DNA of 64,000 nucleotides, taken from positions 107,238 through 171,237 of the forward strand of contig CACNCK010000002.1 in assembly GCA_902618945.1 (NCBI GenBank). Direction: 5' to 3'. Positions 9,238-56,729 of the stretch are shown here, piece by piece. The notes under the pieces were generated by a model. That model made no database searches, had not been told where the DNA came from, and saw only the letters and a program-made list of their open reading frames with translations. Position numbers and translations under genes: made by a program. The DNA comes from an uncultured SAR86 cluster bacterium. Lineage in GTDB: Bacteria; Pseudomonadota; Gammaproteobacteria; Magnimaribacterales; Magnimaribacteraceae. Positions within the stretch are counted from its first letter, which is position 1. Each line of letters begins with the position of its first letter.

Positions 9238-9675
9238 ATGAATGCAGTAGATAAATGGCATGAAGTAATGAAAAGCGGCGGTTCGGGAGCAAAAGAGAAA
9301 CTTGATGATCTTCTTCACGAAGATGTCATATTTTATTCGCCGGTAGTATTTACACCCCAAAGAGGTAAAGAAATTACCAAGTTGTATTTATCAGCTGCAT
9401 CAGGTGTATTTAGTGCTGAAAAAACAAATAAAGATCCAGATAAAAAGAATTCTAAGTTTAAGTATGTGAAAGAGATTATTAGTGGTAATTCTGCATGTTT
9501 GGAATTTGAAACAGAAATGAATGGTATATATGTTAACGGCATCGACTTAATAACTTGGAACGAAAATAATAAGATTACAGAATTTAAGGTTATTGTCAGA
9601 CCGTTGCAGGCAGTGAACACCTTGCATGAAATGATGGGCAAAATGCTTGATAAATTAAAGACTCAAGCACATTGA
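9238..9675 (+). CDS. SnoaL/NTF2-like protein
   Basis: 'KWHEVMKSGGSGAKEKLDDLLHEDVIFYSPVVFTPQRGKE' NTF2-like pattern. Confidence 0.75.
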   Translation: MNAVDKWHEVMKSGGSGAKEKLDDLLHEDVIFYSPVVFTPQRGKEITKLYLSAASGVFSAEKTNKDPDKKNSKFKYVKEIISGNSACLEFETEMNGIYVNGIDLITWNENNKITEFKVIVRPLQAVNTLHEMMGKMLDKLKTQAH

Positions 9676-46412: not shown

Positions 46413-46880
46413 ATGAACATTGTTTTAACAAGACACGCTAAATCTAGCTGGGATAATTTGCATCTTACTGATCATGACCGCCCTTTGAATAGAAGAGGAA
46501 GGGAAGATGCAAAACTTATAGCTAAATATCTAGCTACTTATGAATATACTTATAAAACTATATTGTGTAGCACATCAAAAAGAACGTCTGAGACGCTAGA
46601 GATTTTCTTAAACTATATCCACAAAGTAGATCAAATTAATTACCTATCTAACTTATATCATGCTTCAGCAGAGACTATAAGAAAGGAAATTACCGCTTTA
46701 GACACAGATGGAACATATATGCTTTTAGGGCATAACCCTGGTATAGAAGACTTCTTAAGAAATCTCCATAAAGATAATTCTTTGAAAGTCCCCACGTGCT
46801 CAATAGCTTTATTGTCTAACCAAAATAATTCCCTACGGTTAAAAAAATTAATTACTCCAAAGGAATTAAAGTCACAATAA
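46413..46880 (+). CDS. SixA-like phosphohistidine phosphatase (histidine phosphatase superfamily)
   Basis: 'LTRHAKSSWDN...DHDRPLNRRGREDA', 'LLGHNPGIED'. Confidence 0.9.
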   Translation: MNIVLTRHAKSSWDNLHLTDHDRPLNRRGREDAKLIAKYLATYEYTYKTILCSTSKRTSETLEIFLNYIHKVDQINYLSNLYHASAETIRKEITALDTDGTYMLLGHNPGIEDFLRNLHKDNSLKVPTCSIALLSNQNNSLRLKKLITPKELKSQ

Positions 46881-46892
46881 GACTCTTTACAA

Positions 46893-46947
46893 TGTCACAC
46901 AAATGTCATATAAAAGACACATATGTGACAATTATGTGACATACAAG
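46893..46947 (+). promoter_or_regulatory. Five tandem 11-bp repeats, Pho-box-like PhoB-binding array
   Basis: TGTCACACAAA/TGTCATATAAA/AGACACATATG/TGACAATTATG/TGACATACAAG at 46893, 46904, 46915, 46926 and 46937. Confidence 0.65.
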
Positions 46948-46955
46948 GAGTAAAC

Positions 46956-47411
46956 ATGAAATTAATAAACAAAATAATTAGTTTAAGTCTAATAATGATT
47001 TCTTCTTATACATATTCGGAGTCCAATCACGGATCTCTTTTCTCATTTGCAGAAAATATGCTAGAAATCGAAGGAACTGCTCCTAATATAATATTTTCAA
47101 GCAATGATGAGATAGGTGATTTATGCTCTGATCAATTGATTGCTTGCTTTAGGTCTGATAAACCTTCAAACATATATATTCAAGCAGGACTTCAACTAGA
47201 CTTACTTAATACCACTTTAGTTGGTCTTATGTCCGATTATTTACAATTTAATGCAAATAAAAACATAGATAATTTAAAAAGTTGCAATGCTCAAGTTGAC
47301 TATCTTTTAAGCACATTTAAGGTAAATAAAGCCAAGATATATAAAGCTACTGCTTGCGGAAGGAAAACTATTTCACAAAAACAGATGGAAAATCTTTTAG
47401 CATCAAAATAA
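46956..47411 (+). CDS. exported protein of unknown function, candidate Pho-regulon member
   Basis: 151 aa, signal peptide 'MKLINKIISLSLIMISSYTYS', AAGGAG RBS, 4 Cys in the mature part. Confidence 0.7.
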   Translation: MKLINKIISLSLIMISSYTYSESNHGSLFSFAENMLEIEGTAPNIIFSSNDEIGDLCSDQLIACFRSDKPSNIYIQAGLQLDLLNTTLVGLMSDYLQFNANKNIDNLKSCNAQVDYLLSTFKVNKAKIYKATACGRKTISQKQMENLLASK

Positions 47412-47424
47412 ATTTCTTGGGGAG

Positions 47425-47455
47425 AAAAAAGAGGGACTTGATCCCTCTTTTTTTT
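47425..47455 (+). terminator. Rho-independent terminator
   Basis: AAAAAAGAGGGA-cttga-TCCCTCTTTTTTTT. Confidence 0.9.
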
Positions 47456-47555
47456 GCTTAGTTGAAACTAAAGTTACACTAAAATGTAATATTTTATCCT
47501 GATAATACACAAGATATAGTGCTAAATCTTGAATACATCACTATATGTTGTATAA

Positions 47556-48359
47556 ATGAATGAAGTAATAAAACTAATTCAACCTAAACATTATAAGACT
47601 ATTTGGCTTAGCGACATACACCTAGGCACCAAAGGATGTCAGGCAGAGAAGTTGCTAGACTTTTTATACGAGAATAGTTGTGACACATTATACTTAGTTG
47701 GAGATATTATAGATGGTTGGAGATTAAGCCAGAGTCTTTATTGGCCTCAGACCCACTCAAACGTAATTAGAAGATTTCTTTCTTTCTCTAAACAAGGAAC
47801 CGAGATTATCTTCATAACTGGTAATCATGATGAATTCTTAAGATCATTTTCACCAATTAATCTAGGAAATATCAAAATCATTGACGAGGCAATTCACACC
47901 ACTTGTGATGATAGAGAATTGTTAGTTATACACGGCGATGAATACGATGTAGTCACTAAATATAGTAGATGGATGGCAGTATTGGGATCAGTGGGATATG
48001 AATTTTTAATGGCCTTTAACAGAGGATGGAATATTTTACGCAGATTTTTTGGTTATAAAAATTATTGGTCACTTTCAGCTTATGTCAAGCACAAGGTAAA
48101 GTCAGCTGTTAATTTTATTAGCGACTTTGAAGAAACATTAGCCAGTGCATGCAAAAAACAAGGTTATGATGGAGTGATTGCCGGTCATATACACCATGCA
48201 GAAATTAGAGAAATTGATGGTATCCAATATATGAATTGTGGAGATTGGGTAGAATCATGCACTGCTCTTGTAGAGAAGGAAGATGGTGAAATTTGCATTA
48301 TTGATTACGGCAATAAAGTAAATGAAAATGATAAAGAAAATCAAATCGAAGTAGCATGA
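47556..48359 (+). CDS. plcP: Calcineurin-like metallophosphoesterase, UDP-2,3-diacylglucosamine-hydrolase-like; candidate PlcP phospholipase C
   Basis: 'WLSDIHLGTKG', 'LVGDIIDGWRL', 'ITGNHDEFLR', 'IHGDEYD', 'IAGHIHHAEIREIDGIQYMNCGDWVESCTAL'; adjacent to lipid-type glycosyltransferase. Confidence 0.78.
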   Translation: MNEVIKLIQPKHYKTIWLSDIHLGTKGCQAEKLLDFLYENSCDTLYLVGDIIDGWRLSQSLYWPQTHSNVIRRFLSFSKQGTEIIFITGNHDEFLRSFSPINLGNIKIIDEAIHTTCDDRELLVIHGDEYDVVTKYSRWMAVLGSVGYEFLMAFNRGWNILRRFFGYKNYWSLSAYVKHKVKSAVNFISDFEETLASACKKQGYDGVIAGHIHHAEIREIDGIQYMNCGDWVESCTALVEKEDGEICIIDYGNKVNENDKENQIEVA

Positions 48360-49366
48360 GAGTAGTTATCGTGTCAGACGCATGGTATCCACAAGTCAAT
48401 GGCGTCGTTACTACTCTTTCTCAGCTTAAACAGAATTTAGAAAAAAAAGGATACATTGTTGATCTTATAGAGCCTTCTTTATTTAAGACAACATCAACAA
48501 CTATTTATCCCGAAATTTCTCTTTCAATGAACCCTTGGAAAATAAAAGAATATCTAGATACAGAATTTGATTATTTACACATAGCAACAGAAGGACCTTT
48601 GGGTTTCTTTGCTCGAAGATTTGCCAACAAACATGACTTAAATTACACAACAGCTATTCATACTAAATTTCCAGAATATTTAAATAAAATGATTTTCTTG
48701 CCGGCTGCTCTTACTTACAAATATCTCAGATGGTTTCATAAGAACTCCACCGCAGTATTGGTTAATACTAATTCTCAGATTAAAGAACTTAAAAGCAAGA
48801 AATTTAAAAATCTCAAACTATGGAGTAGGGCAATTGACAAATTGATTTTTTACCCAAGAGAAAAAAAATGCGCAGATAACTATTTGCTTTATGTTGGAAG
48901 AGTATCTAGAGAAAAGAATTTAGAAGCATTTCTCAATCTTCCAACTCACGAAATCAAAGTTGTTGTTGGCTCGGGTCCTATGCTTGATGAATATAAAACA
49001 AAATATAAGGACATAAAATTTGTAGGTCCTAAATTTGGTAACGACTTGGCTCAATTTTATTCAGATGCTTCTGTATTTGTCTTTCCTTCAATGACAGACA
49101 CCTATGGAATAGTTATGATAGAGGCTATGGCTTGTGGCACACCTGTGGCAGCCTTTCCCGTGACTGGTCCTATCGATGTTATAGAGCCCAACCTTAATGG
49201 TTCTGTCAATGAAGACCTGGAAAGAGCAGTTTCTCAAGCAAAAGTAATTTCTTCTCAATCATGTATAGATTCAGTTAAAAATCTATCTTGGGACAGTGTT
49301 ACGCAAACTTTCTTGGATACTCTTGTTCACTGCAAATCTAATCAAGAAAAAATAGTTCAAGCATGA
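48356..49366 (+). CDS. GT4-family glycosyltransferase (SqdX/MgtA/Agt-like), candidate diacylglycerol glycosyltransferase
   Basis: 'SDAWYPQVNGVVTTL', 'LLYVGRVSREKNLEAFL', 'FPSMTDTYGIVMIEAMACGTPVAAFPVTGPIDVI'. Confidence 0.82.
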   Translation: MRVVIVSDAWYPQVNGVVTTLSQLKQNLEKKGYIVDLIEPSLFKTTSTTIYPEISLSMNPWKIKEYLDTEFDYLHIATEGPLGFFARRFANKHDLNYTTAIHTKFPEYLNKMIFLPAALTYKYLRWFHKNSTAVLVNTNSQIKELKSKKFKNLKLWSRAIDKLIFYPREKKCADNYLLYVGRVSREKNLEAFLNLPTHEIKVVVGSGPMLDEYKTKYKDIKFVGPKFGNDLAQFYSDASVFVFPSMTDTYGIVMIEAMACGTPVAAFPVTGPIDVIEPNLNGSVNEDLERAVSQAKVISSQSCIDSVKNLSWDSVTQTFLDTLVHCKSNQEKIVQA

Positions 49367-50706
49367 AATTAACTGTAGTTGGATCAGGTTATGTTGGGTT
49401 AGTTACTGCTGCATGTTTTAGTTTTGCTGGTCATGACGTTCTTTGTGTAGAAAAAGATAAAAAGAAAATTAGTTCCATCAAAAAAGGCAATCTACCCTTT
49501 TATGAACCAAATCTTGAAAACCTAGTTAAAGAAGGGATAAAAAATGGCAGATTAATTTTTTCTACTGATCTCTCCCTTATCAATGAATTTTCTGAAAGTG
49601 TTTTTATTTGTGTGGGTACTCCCAGTAATCCTGATGGATCAGCAAATATCAACTATGTTAAGAAATCTTTGAAGCAAATATTACTAATAGATAATTCAAA
49701 ATTAGAAGATATAGTTATAAAGAGCACAGTACCTCCCGGCACTGCAGATAGACTTTCTAGTGAAATATGTGAAAAAAGAAATATAGACTTGGTCAGTTGT
49801 CCTGAGTTTTTACGGGAAGGGTCCGCTGTTCAGGATTTTTTGAAGCCTCAACGAATTATACTAGGACTACATAATCAACGTAAAAGGGATAAATTCCGCA
49901 GTATTTTTTCCCCATTTAATAGGAAACAGGACAGAATACTTTTTATGGATCCTGTATCTGCTGAACTAACCAAGTATGCATCAAATGCTATGCTAGCAAC
50001 CAAAATCAGTTTTATTAACGAACTGTCTAGATATTCAGACCTTAAGGGAGCTAATATTGAAAAGGTCAGAATGGGAATGGGTTTAGACAGCAGAATAGGA
50101 TTAGAATATTTATATCCTGGTTGTGGATTTGGAGGTTCTTGTTTTCCTAAAGATATTGATGCTCTGATATCTTCCGCAAAAGAAGCTAACCTTAATCTTG
50201 ACCTTATTAAGGCAGTAAAGAAAATAAATCAATCTCAGCCAGACTATCTTATTGATAAACTTTCAGACCATTATGACAATCAATTAAATGGTAAGACAAT
50301 TTCTCTATGGGGGCTTTCTTTCAAGCCAAACACAGATGATATGAGAAGTGCACCCGCACTAAAGGTTATTTCCAAACTATTAGATTTAGGTTGCTTCTTG
50401 CAGATATATGATCCCAAAGCGATGGAAAACTTTAAGAATTCTCCACTTCATACCCCTAATACATTGTTATGTAATTCTGCATCAGAAACTCTTGAAGGAT
50501 CAGATGGACTTGTAATATGTACAGAATGGAGAGAGTTCTTTCAAATTGATTTAAATGTCTTTCAAAGAATGAAATCAAAAGTAGTCATTGATGGCAGAAA
50601 TATCTATCCTCTTGAAACAATGAAAGAAAATGACATAATCTACTATTCTATCGGCAGACCGTTTACAAATATTAAGCAAGGGAACATTGAATTAAAAGCT
50701 AGTTAA
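49363..50706 (+). CDS. ugd: UDP-glucose 6-dehydrogenase
   Basis: 'VVGSGYVGLVTAACFSFAGHDVLCVE', 'CPEFLREGSAVQDFLKPQRIILG', 'YPGCGFGGSCFPKD'. Confidence 0.93.
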   Translation: MKLTVVGSGYVGLVTAACFSFAGHDVLCVEKDKKKISSIKKGNLPFYEPNLENLVKEGIKNGRLIFSTDLSLINEFSESVFICVGTPSNPDGSANINYVKKSLKQILLIDNSKLEDIVIKSTVPPGTADRLSSEICEKRNIDLVSCPEFLREGSAVQDFLKPQRIILGLHNQRKRDKFRSIFSPFNRKQDRILFMDPVSAELTKYASNAMLATKISFINELSRYSDLKGANIEKVRMGMGLDSRIGLEYLYPGCGFGGSCFPKDIDALISSAKEANLNLDLIKAVKKINQSQPDYLIDKLSDHYDNQLNGKTISLWGLSFKPNTDDMRSAPALKVISKLLDLGCFLQIYDPKAMENFKNSPLHTPNTLLCNSASETLEGSDGLVICTEWREFFQIDLNVFQRMKSKVVIDGRNIYPLETMKENDIIYYSIGRPFTNIKQGNIELKAS

Positions 50707-50707
50707 T

Positions 50708-51121
50708 ATGAAAAGAGGAATTACTTTTGGAGCTTTTGATTTATTCCATGCCGGACATGTCCTTATGCTGAAAGAAGCCAAATCTGTTTGTGAACATTTA
50801 ATTGTCTGTGTACAAACTGACCCTAGTCTAGATAGGACAACAAAAAATACACCTGTTCAGTCAATTGTTGAAAGGCAAATACAAGTTTCTGCCTGTAAAT
50901 ATGTTGATGAAGTCATAATTTATGATACTGAAGCAGATGTACTTGAAATATTAGAGACTATGGATTGGGATATAAGAATTATAGGAGATGAGTATAAGGA
51001 CAAAGAATTCACTGGTAGAGATAAATACTTAGATCAATGCTACTTTAATCAGAGAACCCATTCCTTCTCAAGTTCTGAATTAAGAAAAAGAGTAGCTGAT
51101 AAACATTTTAGACCAAATTAA
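50708..51121 (+). CDS. TagD-like cytidylyltransferase (glycerol-3-phosphate cytidylyltransferase family)
   Basis: 'GITFGAFDLFHAGHVLMLKEAK', 'RTHSFSSSELRKRV'. Confidence 0.85.
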   Translation: MKRGITFGAFDLFHAGHVLMLKEAKSVCEHLIVCVQTDPSLDRTTKNTPVQSIVERQIQVSACKYVDEVIIYDTEADVLEILETMDWDIRIIGDEYKDKEFTGRDKYLDQCYFNQRTHSFSSSELRKRVADKHFRPN

Positions 51122-51152
51122 GTCACAGAAAATTAATAAATAATTTTCGTAT

Positions 51153-51175
51153 TTGTCACTTTGTGACACTATAAT
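51153..51175 (+). promoter_or_regulatory. phoB promoter with GTCAC-ttt-GTGAC element and TATAAT -10 box
   Basis: TTGTCACTTTGTGACACTATAAT; TATAAT at 51170-51175. Confidence 0.6.
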
Positions 51176-51181
51176 TTATAA

Positions 51182-51868
51182 ATGTCAAAAAATATTTTAG
51201 TTGTAGAAGACGAACCTGATTTAAGAACAACTCTTGAATTTAATTTAAGGTCAGAAGGATATAAAGTTAAGTCTGCTGCGGATGGTGAAGCCGCAATCAA
51301 AGAAATTGTAAAAAAAGTACCTGATCTTGTGCTTCTTGATTTAATGCTACCTGACATGTCGGGACTTGAAATTTGCAAAAAAATAAGAAATGAATCCTTT
51401 AGTGATCAAGTGTCTATCATCATGTTAACTGCAAAGGGAGAAGAAGTAGATAGGGTTGTGGGATTTGAACTAGGTGCTGATGACTACGTAGTTAAACCTT
51501 TCAGTGTTAGAGAGCTTATGTTGCGAATTTCATCAATCTTAAAAAGAGGATCAGAAACAAAAACTAATAAAGAACAAATTTCAATAGGTGATGTTGAAAT
51601 TAATTTAGCTTCACATAGGGTTTTTATAAGTGGTCTCGAAATTGAACTTACTGCAAAAGAGTTTGAATTACTTAAATACCTGGCGGAACGCAATGGAAGA
51701 ATTCAAACCAGAGAAGTATTATTGGAACAAGTGTGGGATTATAACAATTCAGTCACAACCAGAACTGTGGATACTCATATCAAAAGACTTAGATCTAAAA
51801 TCGGTGATGTGGGATCAAAAATAGAAACCGTCAGAGGTGTAGGTTACCGCTTTAATTACGTCGTATAA
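51182..51868 (+). CDS. phoB: phosphate regulon response regulator PhoB
   Basis: REC 'ILVVEDEPDLRTTLEFNLRSEGY...DLVLLDLMLPDMSG...GADDYVVKPFS' plus OmpR-type wHTH 'RTVDTHIKRLRSKIG...RGVGYRF'. Confidence 0.9.
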   Translation: MSKNILVVEDEPDLRTTLEFNLRSEGYKVKSAADGEAAIKEIVKKVPDLVLLDLMLPDMSGLEICKKIRNESFSDQVSIIMLTAKGEEVDRVVGFELGADDYVVKPFSVRELMLRISSILKRGSETKTNKEQISIGDVEINLASHRVFISGLEIELTAKEFELLKYLAERNGRIQTREVLLEQVWDYNNSVTTRTVDTHIKRLRSKIGDVGSKIETVRGVGYRFNYVV

Positions 51869-51875
51869 TCTATGA

Positions 51876-53609
51876 ATGGATATTAGATGGAGGATCTTCT
51901 GGTCTACTTTTTTGCTTACATCGATGACTGTTCTCAGTCTAGGATATTTACTCTTAGAAAGAACAGGTGATTATTTATTAGAACAATTAGACTCGGAGCT
52001 AACTTCTGAAGCAAAAGGTGCGATTTTTATACTCTCTAATCCAGATTATAAAATTTCCAGTTACCAAACACTTTCACGACAACTCTCAGATTCATATGGT
52101 TTTAGAGTTTCTCTCATCAAATCAAATGGTGAAGTGGTAGGCGACTCAGATGTCGAAGAGGAAGACCTTAGGAAACTGGACAATCATTACAATAGACCTG
52201 AAATTCAGGCAGCTATTATTAATAATATTGGTAAAGCGACTCGTTACAGTAATACCTTAAAAACAGATATGAGGTATCTTGCTTTAGCATCAAATAAAGC
52301 AGGAGACATAAACTTTGTTAGATTCGCCGTTCCACTATCTGAAATAGAAGCTACATTACTGGTTCTAGAAAATTCCGTATATGGCTTTTTGCTCGTATCC
52401 CTATTAATTGCTGTGCTTTTAAGTTATTTATTGTCTAGATTTCTAACGCTTGAGTATATTGAATTGATATCAAGTGCTAGAAAATTAGCAAAAACAAGTG
52501 GCATGAAGGGGTCGAAAAGAGCTGCAGTAGAGCAAATAAGTTCTAATTTAATTGAAATCCAGGGAGCACTTAAGAACGAGTTTACTGCTATTGCCAATGA
52601 AAGAAATCAGTTTGGAAATGCACTTGAAGAAATGGGACAGGGTGTAATTTCGATTAATAAAAATGGAATAATAGAATTAACCAACCCAGCTGCCAGTAAA
52701 CTGTTAGGTCTAGATAAGCTATCTATAGGAGATTCTTTTATGGAAAAGGTCTCAATATCTGGGTTACAAGACCTAATAAAGGAAACTACTTCTTCAGAAC
52801 CCGGATTAGATGAGATAGAAATACACCATCCCTTTTATAGAGCTTTTATTGCAAGTGCCAGTTTCAATCCAGATACGGAAGAGTCTTTACTCGTATTTTC
52901 AGATATTACTAGAATAAAAAAACTTGAATCTGCCAGAAGTGACTTTATAGGTAATGTCTCTCATGAACTTAGAACACCCATTTCGGTACTTTTAGCTTCA
53001 TCAGAGACTATTCTTAATACCGACATAAAAAAAGAAAAAGATCTAAAACAGTTTATTAAAGCTATACACCGAAATTCCGAAAGACTTAAAAATTTAGTAG
53101 ATGATCTTCTGCACTTATCGCGTATAGAGGGTGGCAGTCTTAATATGACTATCGAGAAGATAAATCTTGATCACATAGTTGAATCAACTATATTAAATTT
53201 AGAACAAGAAGCACTAAAGAAAAGTATAAACATTGAATCTCTGGTTGATAAAAGGATTGAAGTACTATCGGACTTCATTTCCTTGGATATTATAATCTCT
53301 AACTATTTAAATAATGCACTTGCTTATTCTCCAAATAATTCAAAAATCATAATTACTGCAGAAGAGGTAGATAAAAAGATAAAGTTATCAGTTAAGGATG
53401 AGGGAGAGGGAATACCTGAAAATTATAAAGATAGAGTTTTTGAAAGATTTTTTAGAGTTGATAAAGGGAGGTCTCTGAACCAGGGTGGTACTGGGCTTGG
53501 GTTATCCATAGTCAAAAATTTAGCTTCAACTCTTTCTTGTACAGTTGGGGTAGAAAATCTTGAGCCAAAAGGAGCAAGTTTTTGGATAGAGTTAAATAAA
53601 TCAACTTAA
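51876..53609 (+). CDS. phoR: phosphate regulon sensor histidine kinase PhoR (with extracytoplasmic sensor segment)
   Basis: H-box 'DFIGNVSHELRTPISVL', N/G boxes 'NNALAYSP', 'DEGEGIP', 'GTGLGLSIVKNLA'; two TM flanking about 130 aa, PAS-like domain. Confidence 0.9.
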   Translation: MDIRWRIFWSTFLLTSMTVLSLGYLLLERTGDYLLEQLDSELTSEAKGAIFILSNPDYKISSYQTLSRQLSDSYGFRVSLIKSNGEVVGDSDVEEEDLRKLDNHYNRPEIQAAIINNIGKATRYSNTLKTDMRYLALASNKAGDINFVRFAVPLSEIEATLLVLENSVYGFLLVSLLIAVLLSYLLSRFLTLEYIELISSARKLAKTSGMKGSKRAAVEQISSNLIEIQGALKNEFTAIANERNQFGNALEEMGQGVISINKNGIIELTNPAASKLLGLDKLSIGDSFMEKVSISGLQDLIKETTSSEPGLDEIEIHHPFYRAFIASASFNPDTEESLLVFSDITRIKKLESARSDFIGNVSHELRTPISVLLASSETILNTDIKKEKDLKQFIKAIHRNSERLKNLVDDLLHLSRIEGGSLNMTIEKINLDHIVESTILNLEQEALKKSINIESLVDKRIEVLSDFISLDIIISNYLNNALAYSPNNSKIIITAEEVDKKIKLSVKDEGEGIPENYKDRVFERFFRVDKGRSLNQGGTGLGLSIVKNLASTLSCTVGVENLEPKGASFWIELNKST

Positions 53610-54491
53610 ATTTTCGTTAAGATATTCAAAGGCCAAGGCATCACAAATTCCCCAATCTATAGCGAAAAGCTTATTTATATTTGAGTGCTCTAAAATATAA
53701 GAAAAAATATCTGAAGCGGGTACAATTACATCTGCTCTATCTTCCGCAAGACTATATTTATTTATTCGATCAACAATTGGCATTTTAGATAAATTTTTTC
53801 TGATTTCTTCAAATTCCTTAAGTTCTAAAGGACTATATTTTTGTATTTCAAGAATCTTAAAAATTCTCCTTATATTGCCACCGATACCCACTAAAGCGTC
53901 TGCATTATTTTCTTTAACTACATTCAAAAAGGCTTTTAACTTTTCCCATTCTTTTATGCTGTCTTTACCCTTCATAATTCTCACAGCACCAAGATCAAAT
54001 GATTCATAAAACTCTTCGGAGCTATTGCGCATATAAATTTCTGTACTGCCTCCTCCAACATCAACATAGATAGGGTGATTCAGGTTTTCAATTTTTCTTG
54101 TATTGGCACCTTTAAGGTAATAGGCCTCTTGTTTACCGCTTAATATATTAACAGGTGTCTGACAGGCTTCTTCAATCTTGCTACATACTTCATTTCCATT
54201 TACCGCATTCCTAGTAGCCGATGTTGCGCATATTCCAGCCCACTCTATTTTCCTTTTTCGAACTTTATTAGTAAGATTTTTAAGTTCTTGAATAAGTCTT
54301 TTTTCTGATTCTTCTGAGATCCTATTTGTTTCAAATACATCTTGTCCAAGCCTAAGATCAATTCTTTTAAAGGTATCTAACTCTAATGGGAAGAGATTCT
54401 TCGAGGTCCTAATCCTAAATTGCTTGAACTTAATTGCATTTGATCCAATATCAACGGCAGCAATTCGTTGGAAAATTTTCTTTGATTTCAA
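53601..54491 (-). CDS. ppx: Ppx/GppA family exopolyphosphatase
   Basis: 'AAVDIGSNAIKFKQFRI', 'YVDVGGGSTEIYM', 'IGGNIRRIF'. Confidence 0.88.
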   Translation of the reverse strand: MKSKKIFQRIAAVDIGSNAIKFKQFRIRTSKNLFPLELDTFKRIDLRLGQDVFETNRISEESEKRLIQELKNLTNKVRKRKIEWAGICATSATRNAVNGNEVCSKIEEACQTPVNILSGKQEAYYLKGANTRKIENLNHPIYVDVGGGSTEIYMRNSSEEFYESFDLGAVRIMKGKDSIKEWEKLKAFLNVVKENNADALVGIGGNIRRIFKILEIQKYSPLELKEFEEIRKNLSKMPIVDRINKYSLAEDRADVIVPASDIFSYILEHSNINKLFAIDWGICDALAFEYLNENLS

Positions 54492-55327
54492 CTGGATTGA
54501 TTTTGTATAAGTTTTTGTAACATTTTAAACTGCTGATATGTGAGCCCGGAAAACTCAACACCTTTATATTCTAGTTTGTGGTTATTTATGCCTGCATCCC
54601 ATGTTTTGGGTTTGCTAAGTTTTTTTCCTTCATAGTCAATCTCATTTAAGAGATACCTTAAGGCTGTTAAGCGAGCGACCATTTTATTATTTGCATTAAT
54701 CACTATCCAAGGACTTTGCTCATAAGATGTGTTTGAGAACATTTGTTCTTTAAAAAAAGAAAAAATCTCCCATTTATCTGCCATTCTTAAATCATTAGTA
54801 CTTAGTTTCCAGAGTTTCAAAGGGTCAGTTTGTCTTTCGTTGAACCGTTTGCTTTGTTGTCTTTTTTCAATGGACAAATAGAACTTGATCAAAATAAGGT
54901 TGTCTTCAATATATGATTTTTCCCATCTTATGACTTTGTTCATAAAATGAGTGTATTGCCTTTTAGAGCAATAACCCATAGTTATCTCGACCGTGGCTCT
55001 TGTGTACCAAGATCTATCAAAAAAAACTATTTCGCCTTTTTTAGGCATATGTTTTTCATAACGTTTAAACCATTTTTTTGATTCATTTTCAGTTGGTATT
55101 CCTAAATGCACATACCTAAAATGATCAGGAATAAGATGTTTGGCTAATAGATTGATTGTGTCAGTTTTCCCAGCTGCGTCCCTTCCTTCAAAAACAACGG
55201 CTATTTTTTTCCCTTCTTTAATTGCCCAATTTTGAAGCTTAAGAAACTCAATTTGTAGACTTCTTTTTTCTTTTCTATAAAGGTCGGGATTGAGTCTGTT
55301 GTATTCGGAAACGTCGTAGTTGATCAT
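54488..55327 (-). CDS. ppk2: polyphosphate kinase 2 (PPK2 family)
   Basis: 'VFEGRDAAGKTDTINLLAKHLIPDHFRYVHLGIPT', 'GEIVFFDRSWYTRATVE'. Confidence 0.93.
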   Translation of the reverse strand: MINYDVSEYNRLNPDLYRKEKRSLQIEFLKLQNWAIKEGKKIAVVFEGRDAAGKTDTINLLAKHLIPDHFRYVHLGIPTENESKKWFKRYEKHMPKKGEIVFFDRSWYTRATVEITMGYCSKRQYTHFMNKVIRWEKSYIEDNLILIKFYLSIEKRQQSKRFNERQTDPLKLWKLSTNDLRMADKWEIFSFFKEQMFSNTSYEQSPWIVINANNKMVARLTALRYLLNEIDYEGKKLSKPKTWDAGINNHKLEYKGVEFSGLTYQQFKMLQKLIQNQSS

Positions 55328-56668: not shown

Positions 56669-56681
56669 TCGTAACCAAATT

Positions 56682-56729
56682 ATCACAAAGTGACAGCATA
56701 ATTGTCACCAAGATTATAGAGAATATACT
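56682..56729 (+). promoter_or_regulatory. Promoter and Pho-box-like sites upstream of TonB receptor/phytase
   Basis: ATCACAAAGTGACAGCATAATTGTCACC followed by TTGTCA-N16-TATACT. Confidence 0.5.

Follow-up and report, generated by a model that had tools for sequence, protein, structure and literature searches.

PhoB binding has been described as head to tail (PMC8041468), and a 2016 paper holds that all known sites of the OmpR/PhoB family are direct repeats (PMC4832192). The Pho operator of pstS in Escherichia coli K-12 comprises five TGTCA-like units in 11-bp phase, all facing the same direction and ending about 60 nt before the ATG, and in three E. coli operators the −10 hexamer begins 16 bp past the first base of the box's second TGTCA (TATAGT for phoA, CATAAT for phoB and TATTTT for pstS, hexamers read off the sequences). 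Complex operators with more than two 11-nt units are also described for Streptomyces PhoP (PMC4415409, PMC7866108), although there the host is an actinobacterium, the units are of the GTTCACC type and they are described as direct repeats. In marine bacteria, PlcP and a glycosyltransferase form a known phosphorus-starvation pair, encoded in lipid-remodelling clusters with Pho boxes, and plcP has been reported in SAR86 (PMC4796936); that work concerns plcP, not the gene or the multi-unit arrays considered here.

The array described below lies upstream of a gene, here called X, in a 64,000-nucleotide stretch of DNA from an uncultured SAR86 cluster bacterium (the window). The genes around X are a sixA-like gene, X itself, genes for a plcP-like phosphoesterase, a glycosyltransferase and a UDP-sugar dehydrogenase (identified by sequence inspection), phoB and phoR, and the same region further holds a ppx-like gene, ppk2, a Pit-type permease, a TonB-dependent receptor and a phytase. 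The locus resembles the lipid-remodelling clusters in carrying plcP and a glycosyltransferase downstream of X, and resembles E. coli pstS in its context of phosphate-starvation genes.

Register, rarity and orientation of the array

The features of the array and of the gene that follows it are:

46893–46941, no strand assigned: putative Pho-type operator of five 11-bp-phased units (sequence, pattern search, shuffles, conservation)
46893–46908, plus strand: units 1 and 2, TGTCACACAAATGTCA, a pair of forward half-sites that ranks second in pair score within the window
46915–46919, minus strand: unit 3, AGACA (TGTCT on the minus strand), from the sequence
46926–46941, minus strand: units 4 and 5, reading TGTCACATAATTGTCA on the minus strand, a pair of reverse half-sites that ranks first in pair score within the window
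46945–46950, plus strand: AAGGAG, Shine–Dalgarno sequence, from the sequence
46956–47411, plus strand: gene X, encoding a 151-aa protein, probably periplasmic, in which four cysteines are invariant
47430–47455, plus strand: hairpin AGAGGGA-CTTGA-TCCCTCT followed by a T run, probable terminator of X, found by eye and absent from the terminator scan output

Read directly, TGTCA forms units 1 (46893–46897) and 2 (46904–46908) and TGACA forms units 4 (46926–46930) and 5 (46937–46941), and the five units begin at 46893, 46904, 46915, 46926 and 46937, spaced by exactly 11 bp. TGTCA and TGACA are reverse complements, so the array holds two forward units, two reverse units and the reverse-type AGACA with one mismatch, all in a single 11-bp register; the order is head to tail within units 1–2 and within units 4–5 and mixed over the array as a whole. 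The original prediction of five exactly 11-bp-phased TGWCA repeats is thus borne out in positions and phase, but unit 3 reads AGACA and the mixed orientations mean that these are not five direct repeats. Its further view that five units in a row are unusually extended fails against E. coli pstS, whose five units score 23/25 compared with 24/25 here. By sequence comparison, the length of the array is ordinary and its mixed orientation is the feature that departs from textbook PhoB sites: the pstS units share one direction, whereas those before X face both ways, and the array before X ends only 14 nt upstream of the ATG at 46956.

Pattern searches of the 1.37-Mb genome returned a single match to the five-unit pattern (TGWCA, with the first base of unit 3 free), which is the array before X, and no match to the reversed control pattern. 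Exact TGTCA-N6-TGTCA occurs at two sites in the genome, both within this array and one on each strand, and runs of at least three units with at most one mismatch occur solely before X. Within the window, four units with at most three mismatches were matched twice, both times inside the array, compared with a mean of 0.05 matches in shuffled windows, of which none in 100 reached two.

The candidate promoter elements around the array, and the weaker boxes at two other phosphate loci in the window, are all inferred assignments:

46920–46925, plus strand: CATATG, candidate −10 at +16 from unit 2 (the E. coli PhoB-to-−10 spacing), 3/6 matches
46886–46914, plus strand: TTTACA-17-TATAAA, alternative sigma-70-like core promoter under units 1 and 2, absent from the promoter scan output because TATAAA ends in A
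47474–47506, plus strand: TTACACT/TGTAATA, a weak pair resembling a pho box, upstream of plcP and followed by GATAAT at +16
56670–56702, plus strand: CGTAACC/TATCACA, a weak pair resembling a pho box, upstream of the TonB-dependent receptor/phytase pair and followed by CATAAT at +16

The E. coli-like +16 spacing is present before plcP and before the receptor/phytase pair as well as before X, where the hexamer is a poor −10; TTTACA-17-TATAAA matches a core promoter better than CATATG does. The putative operator overlaps every candidate core promoter of X, its downstream units covering the −10 or the first transcribed bases, in agreement with the earlier suggestion that it overlaps the promoter rather than lying upstream of it.

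Conservation of the array and its recurrence in SAR86

Homologues of X are confined to SAR86 in the collections searched, with 53–96% identity in the window's family and 24–34% in other families of the order; a profile search also finds them in a fourth family, with the array again present before X. As the original prediction had proposed as a check, upstream regions of the homologues were searched for the 11-bp periodicity, and among homologues of 25–96% identity the array was found just before the ATG in nearly all loci scored, an outcome in favour of that prediction: a four-unit score of at least 15/20 occurs upstream of 32 of 33 X genes, compared with 30 of the 861 remaining ORFs at these loci, several of them sharing X's array in divergent orientation. 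The exception is L090, in which X lies 4 bp behind another gene and the array is absent. In 20 representative X upstream regions, 83 unit pairs at 11 bp were counted where 3.2 were expected from other upstream regions; as the X loci are related, none of these conservation counts represents independent events. In L074 the array carries two substitutions, by which TGTGACA becomes TGTCACA and TGTAACA; each leaves a site-like sequence in place. The array stays beside X while the neighbours vary (sixA in the window's genus; elsewhere a photolyase-like gene, an amidohydrolase, a large lipoprotein or a recA/cinA/ferredoxin neighbourhood). Ownership of the array by a neighbouring gene was ruled out because the divergent partner differs between families.

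The array is not unique to X across the order. Among 141 SAR86 genomes, about 111 three-unit arrays with at most one mismatch were found, compared with 6 for the reversed pattern, and in other SAR86 genera similar arrays lie upstream of pit, an aquaporin-like gene and a 28-codon ORF behind phoR. TGTMAY pairs also precede the TonB-dependent receptor (TBDR)/phytase genes of genomes G036 and G040, with TACATT and TAAATT, read off the sequences, at the +16 position. The arrays before pit and the pairs before TBDR/phytase place the same motif before recognized phosphate genes of the lineage, tying it to phosphate independently of X.

Across 60 distinct three-unit arrays from SAR86, 40 of the 61 pairs of neighbouring exact units have opposite orientations, although the arrays derive from a handful of operator lineages and the pairs are not independent cases. 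The base after TGTCA, on the unit's own strand, is C in 75 of 114 units, and the mirror image, G before the unit, occurs in 28, which argues that the orientation calls are not noise. We tentatively propose, at slightly less than even odds, that SAR86 PhoB reads arrays with a fixed 11-bp register but free orientation, forward and reverse TGTCAYA being mixed in one operator.

Several further ORFs lie beside such arrays. A conserved 28-codon ORF (M..xW.KFH..MK[SA]GRL.K..K.SG) directly behind phoR has a three-unit Pho-type array immediately upstream at L182:6787 (minus strand), L183:6315, L184:6266 and L188:6752 (all plus strand), and possibly encodes a phosphate-controlled microprotein. A conserved 41-codon ORF with hydrophobic ends (MNTKxVLKxQGLxP...GFxSxWVVL) lies between a three-unit array and pit in L153, L173 and L180. 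In G040, in which X was not detected, a four-unit array lies 19 nt upstream of a gene for a 98-aa secreted-looking protein (L136:6371–6667, minus strand) that is unrelated to the X profile. The aquaporin-like gene follows a three-unit array at L178:8943 and at related g12 loci, and its homologue in G036 adjoins an ArsC-like gene, a context that suggests arsenate defence tied to the phosphate regulator.

The candidate regulator and the competing readings

Two genes downstream of X encode the candidate regulatory pair:

51182–51868, plus strand: phoB, the sole OmpR/PhoB-type winged-helix regulator detected in the window's genome by domain search
51876–53609, plus strand: phoR, sensor kinase

The DNA-binding domain of OmpR/PhoB regulators, Trans_reg_C (PF00486), was searched for in 19 SAR86 genomes. 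Exactly one was found, at PhoB, in 16 of the 19, two in one genome, and none in G042 and G047; both of the latter carry X and its array, and incomplete assemblies perhaps account for the missing PhoB. PhoB has the same recognition helix throughout SAR86, TTRTVDTH(I/V)KRLR, which departs from E. coli EDRTVDVHIRRLR at a few positions, so the genome encodes a cognate PhoB with the base-reading helix, alongside an array of TGTCA-type half-sites with centres 11 bp apart. A truncated phoB-like ORF near a shortened second copy of X was noted in G056 (L062:8142–8474 and 9386–9670, both minus strand), apart from the intact phoB and X. No PstB ATPase was detected at the NCBIfam cut-off in any of the 19 SAR86 genomes, whereas 13 of 14 control genomes have a protein that reaches it; PhoBR in SAR86 thus seems to work without the Pst transporter.

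Together, the conserved array, the similar arrays before pit and other genes and the standing of PhoB as the only regulator of its type in most of the genomes searched make a PhoB operator the best reading. We put at about 0.65 the probability that the array is a five-unit PhoB operator giving phosphate-controlled expression of X, probably activated by phosphate starvation. On starvation, PhoR would phosphorylate PhoB, which would occupy TGTCAYA half-sites 11 bp apart on one helix face. The forward pair, units 1 and 2, would most likely recruit RNA polymerase as in E. coli, with a −10 near 46920–46925 and a transcript start near 46932, while reverse units 4 and 5, covering the −10 and the first transcribed bases, would contribute to binding energy and may put a ceiling on output. 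The predicted outcome is phosphate-controlled expression of a SAR86-specific, probable periplasmic protein. Against this reading count the poor match of CATATG, the placing of units 4 and 5 where an activator should not sit, the arrays in genomes without a detected PhoB, the X gene that lacks an array in L090, and the window's known phosphate genes, which are preceded by weak boxes only.

The main rival to activation is that PhoB represses X, which we consider unlikely though well ahead of the other alternatives. X would then be read from TTTACA-17-TATAAA, and phosphorylated PhoB lying over the spacer, the −10, the start and the first transcribed bases would shut it off in starvation. The better-matching core promoter does sit under the array, a TTGACA/TTTACA-like box followed 16–18 bp on by a −10-like hexamer recurs in most X clades, and a description of E. 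coli PhoB makes it a dual regulator whose effect varies with the position of its site (PMC10294691). However, TTGACA is itself an array unit, so its recurrence is not independent; loci L078–L082 have no scored sigma-70 match; and the similar arrays stand before pit, which is expected to be induced by starvation.

That the array serves a regulator other than PhoB is improbable: its mixed orientation differs from the described PhoB site and two genomes combine X and array with no PhoB detected, but the 11-bp phase of TGTCAY is a PhoB hallmark, PhoB is alone in its family in most genomes and the arrays recur upstream of phosphate genes. Still more remote is a shared divergent operator whose reverse units act on a promoter facing left. 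Arrays in other SAR86 families do separate X from a divergent gene, which is photolyase-like or encodes an amidohydrolase or a surface lipoprotein, yet the array accompanies X through each change of divergent partner. In the window, moreover, sixA lies to the left, is oriented rightwards and ends at 46880, which would make a leftward transcript antisense. The AT-rich region and the short unit speak for a chance run of AT-rich pentamers, but such an origin is refuted by conservation of the phase across the order, and both the shuffle expectation and the single five-unit site in the genome speak against it, leaving it a negligible probability. Binding by PhoB, with activation of X, is the preferred reading.

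Gene X and the probable exchange of its phosphate region

The protein X matched nothing in Pfam or NCBIfam at E ≤ 0.001 and no sequence in the PDB, and its structural matches are weak, which ruled out its assignment to a known family. The AlphaFold2 model, built with 29 alignment rows, has a mean pLDDT of 81. Its top structural matches, and nearest folds, are zincin-type metallopeptidases (selecase, IrrE and SprT-like), with no match at E ≤ 0.001 against PDB or viral models; unlike these enzymes, X has four invariant cysteines and lacks HExxH in its alignment consensus, the corresponding helix reading LVGLMSDYLQ. The cysteines, invariant among homologues, and an N-terminus that resembles a signal peptide by eye suggest a disulfide-bonded periplasmic protein, for which a binding or inhibitor role is possible.

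In 18 of 32 named loci, X has phoB, ppk2, ppx, pit or phytase as a neighbour at no more than 10 kb. Two classes of phoB occur in the window's family: the first (253–259 bits) is the one found in genomes that have X and a full-length phoB, and genomes of the second (241–248 bits) are without X. In three of the latter, at L069, L070 and L071, X is absent and phoR is 35–38% identical to that of the window, while most flanking genes are 93–100% identical. The sixA-X-plcP-phoBR-pit block (window 46413–55327) is likely a hotspot of allelic exchange. Exchange of the phosphate region seems to proceed in blocks, and the linkage of X with one phoB class may therefore be hitch-hiking.

SAR86 is an abundant ocean lineage, and most of its genomes examined here have no OmpR/PhoB-type regulator besides PhoB. 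The array provides a readable candidate Pho operator for this lineage, and with it the SAR86 phosphate regulon would become predictable from sequence. The putative operator would link a lineage-specific periplasmic protein and micro-ORFs, otherwise unconnected, to phosphate. If functional, its mixed orientation tests the rule that OmpR/PhoB regulators bind direct repeats only.
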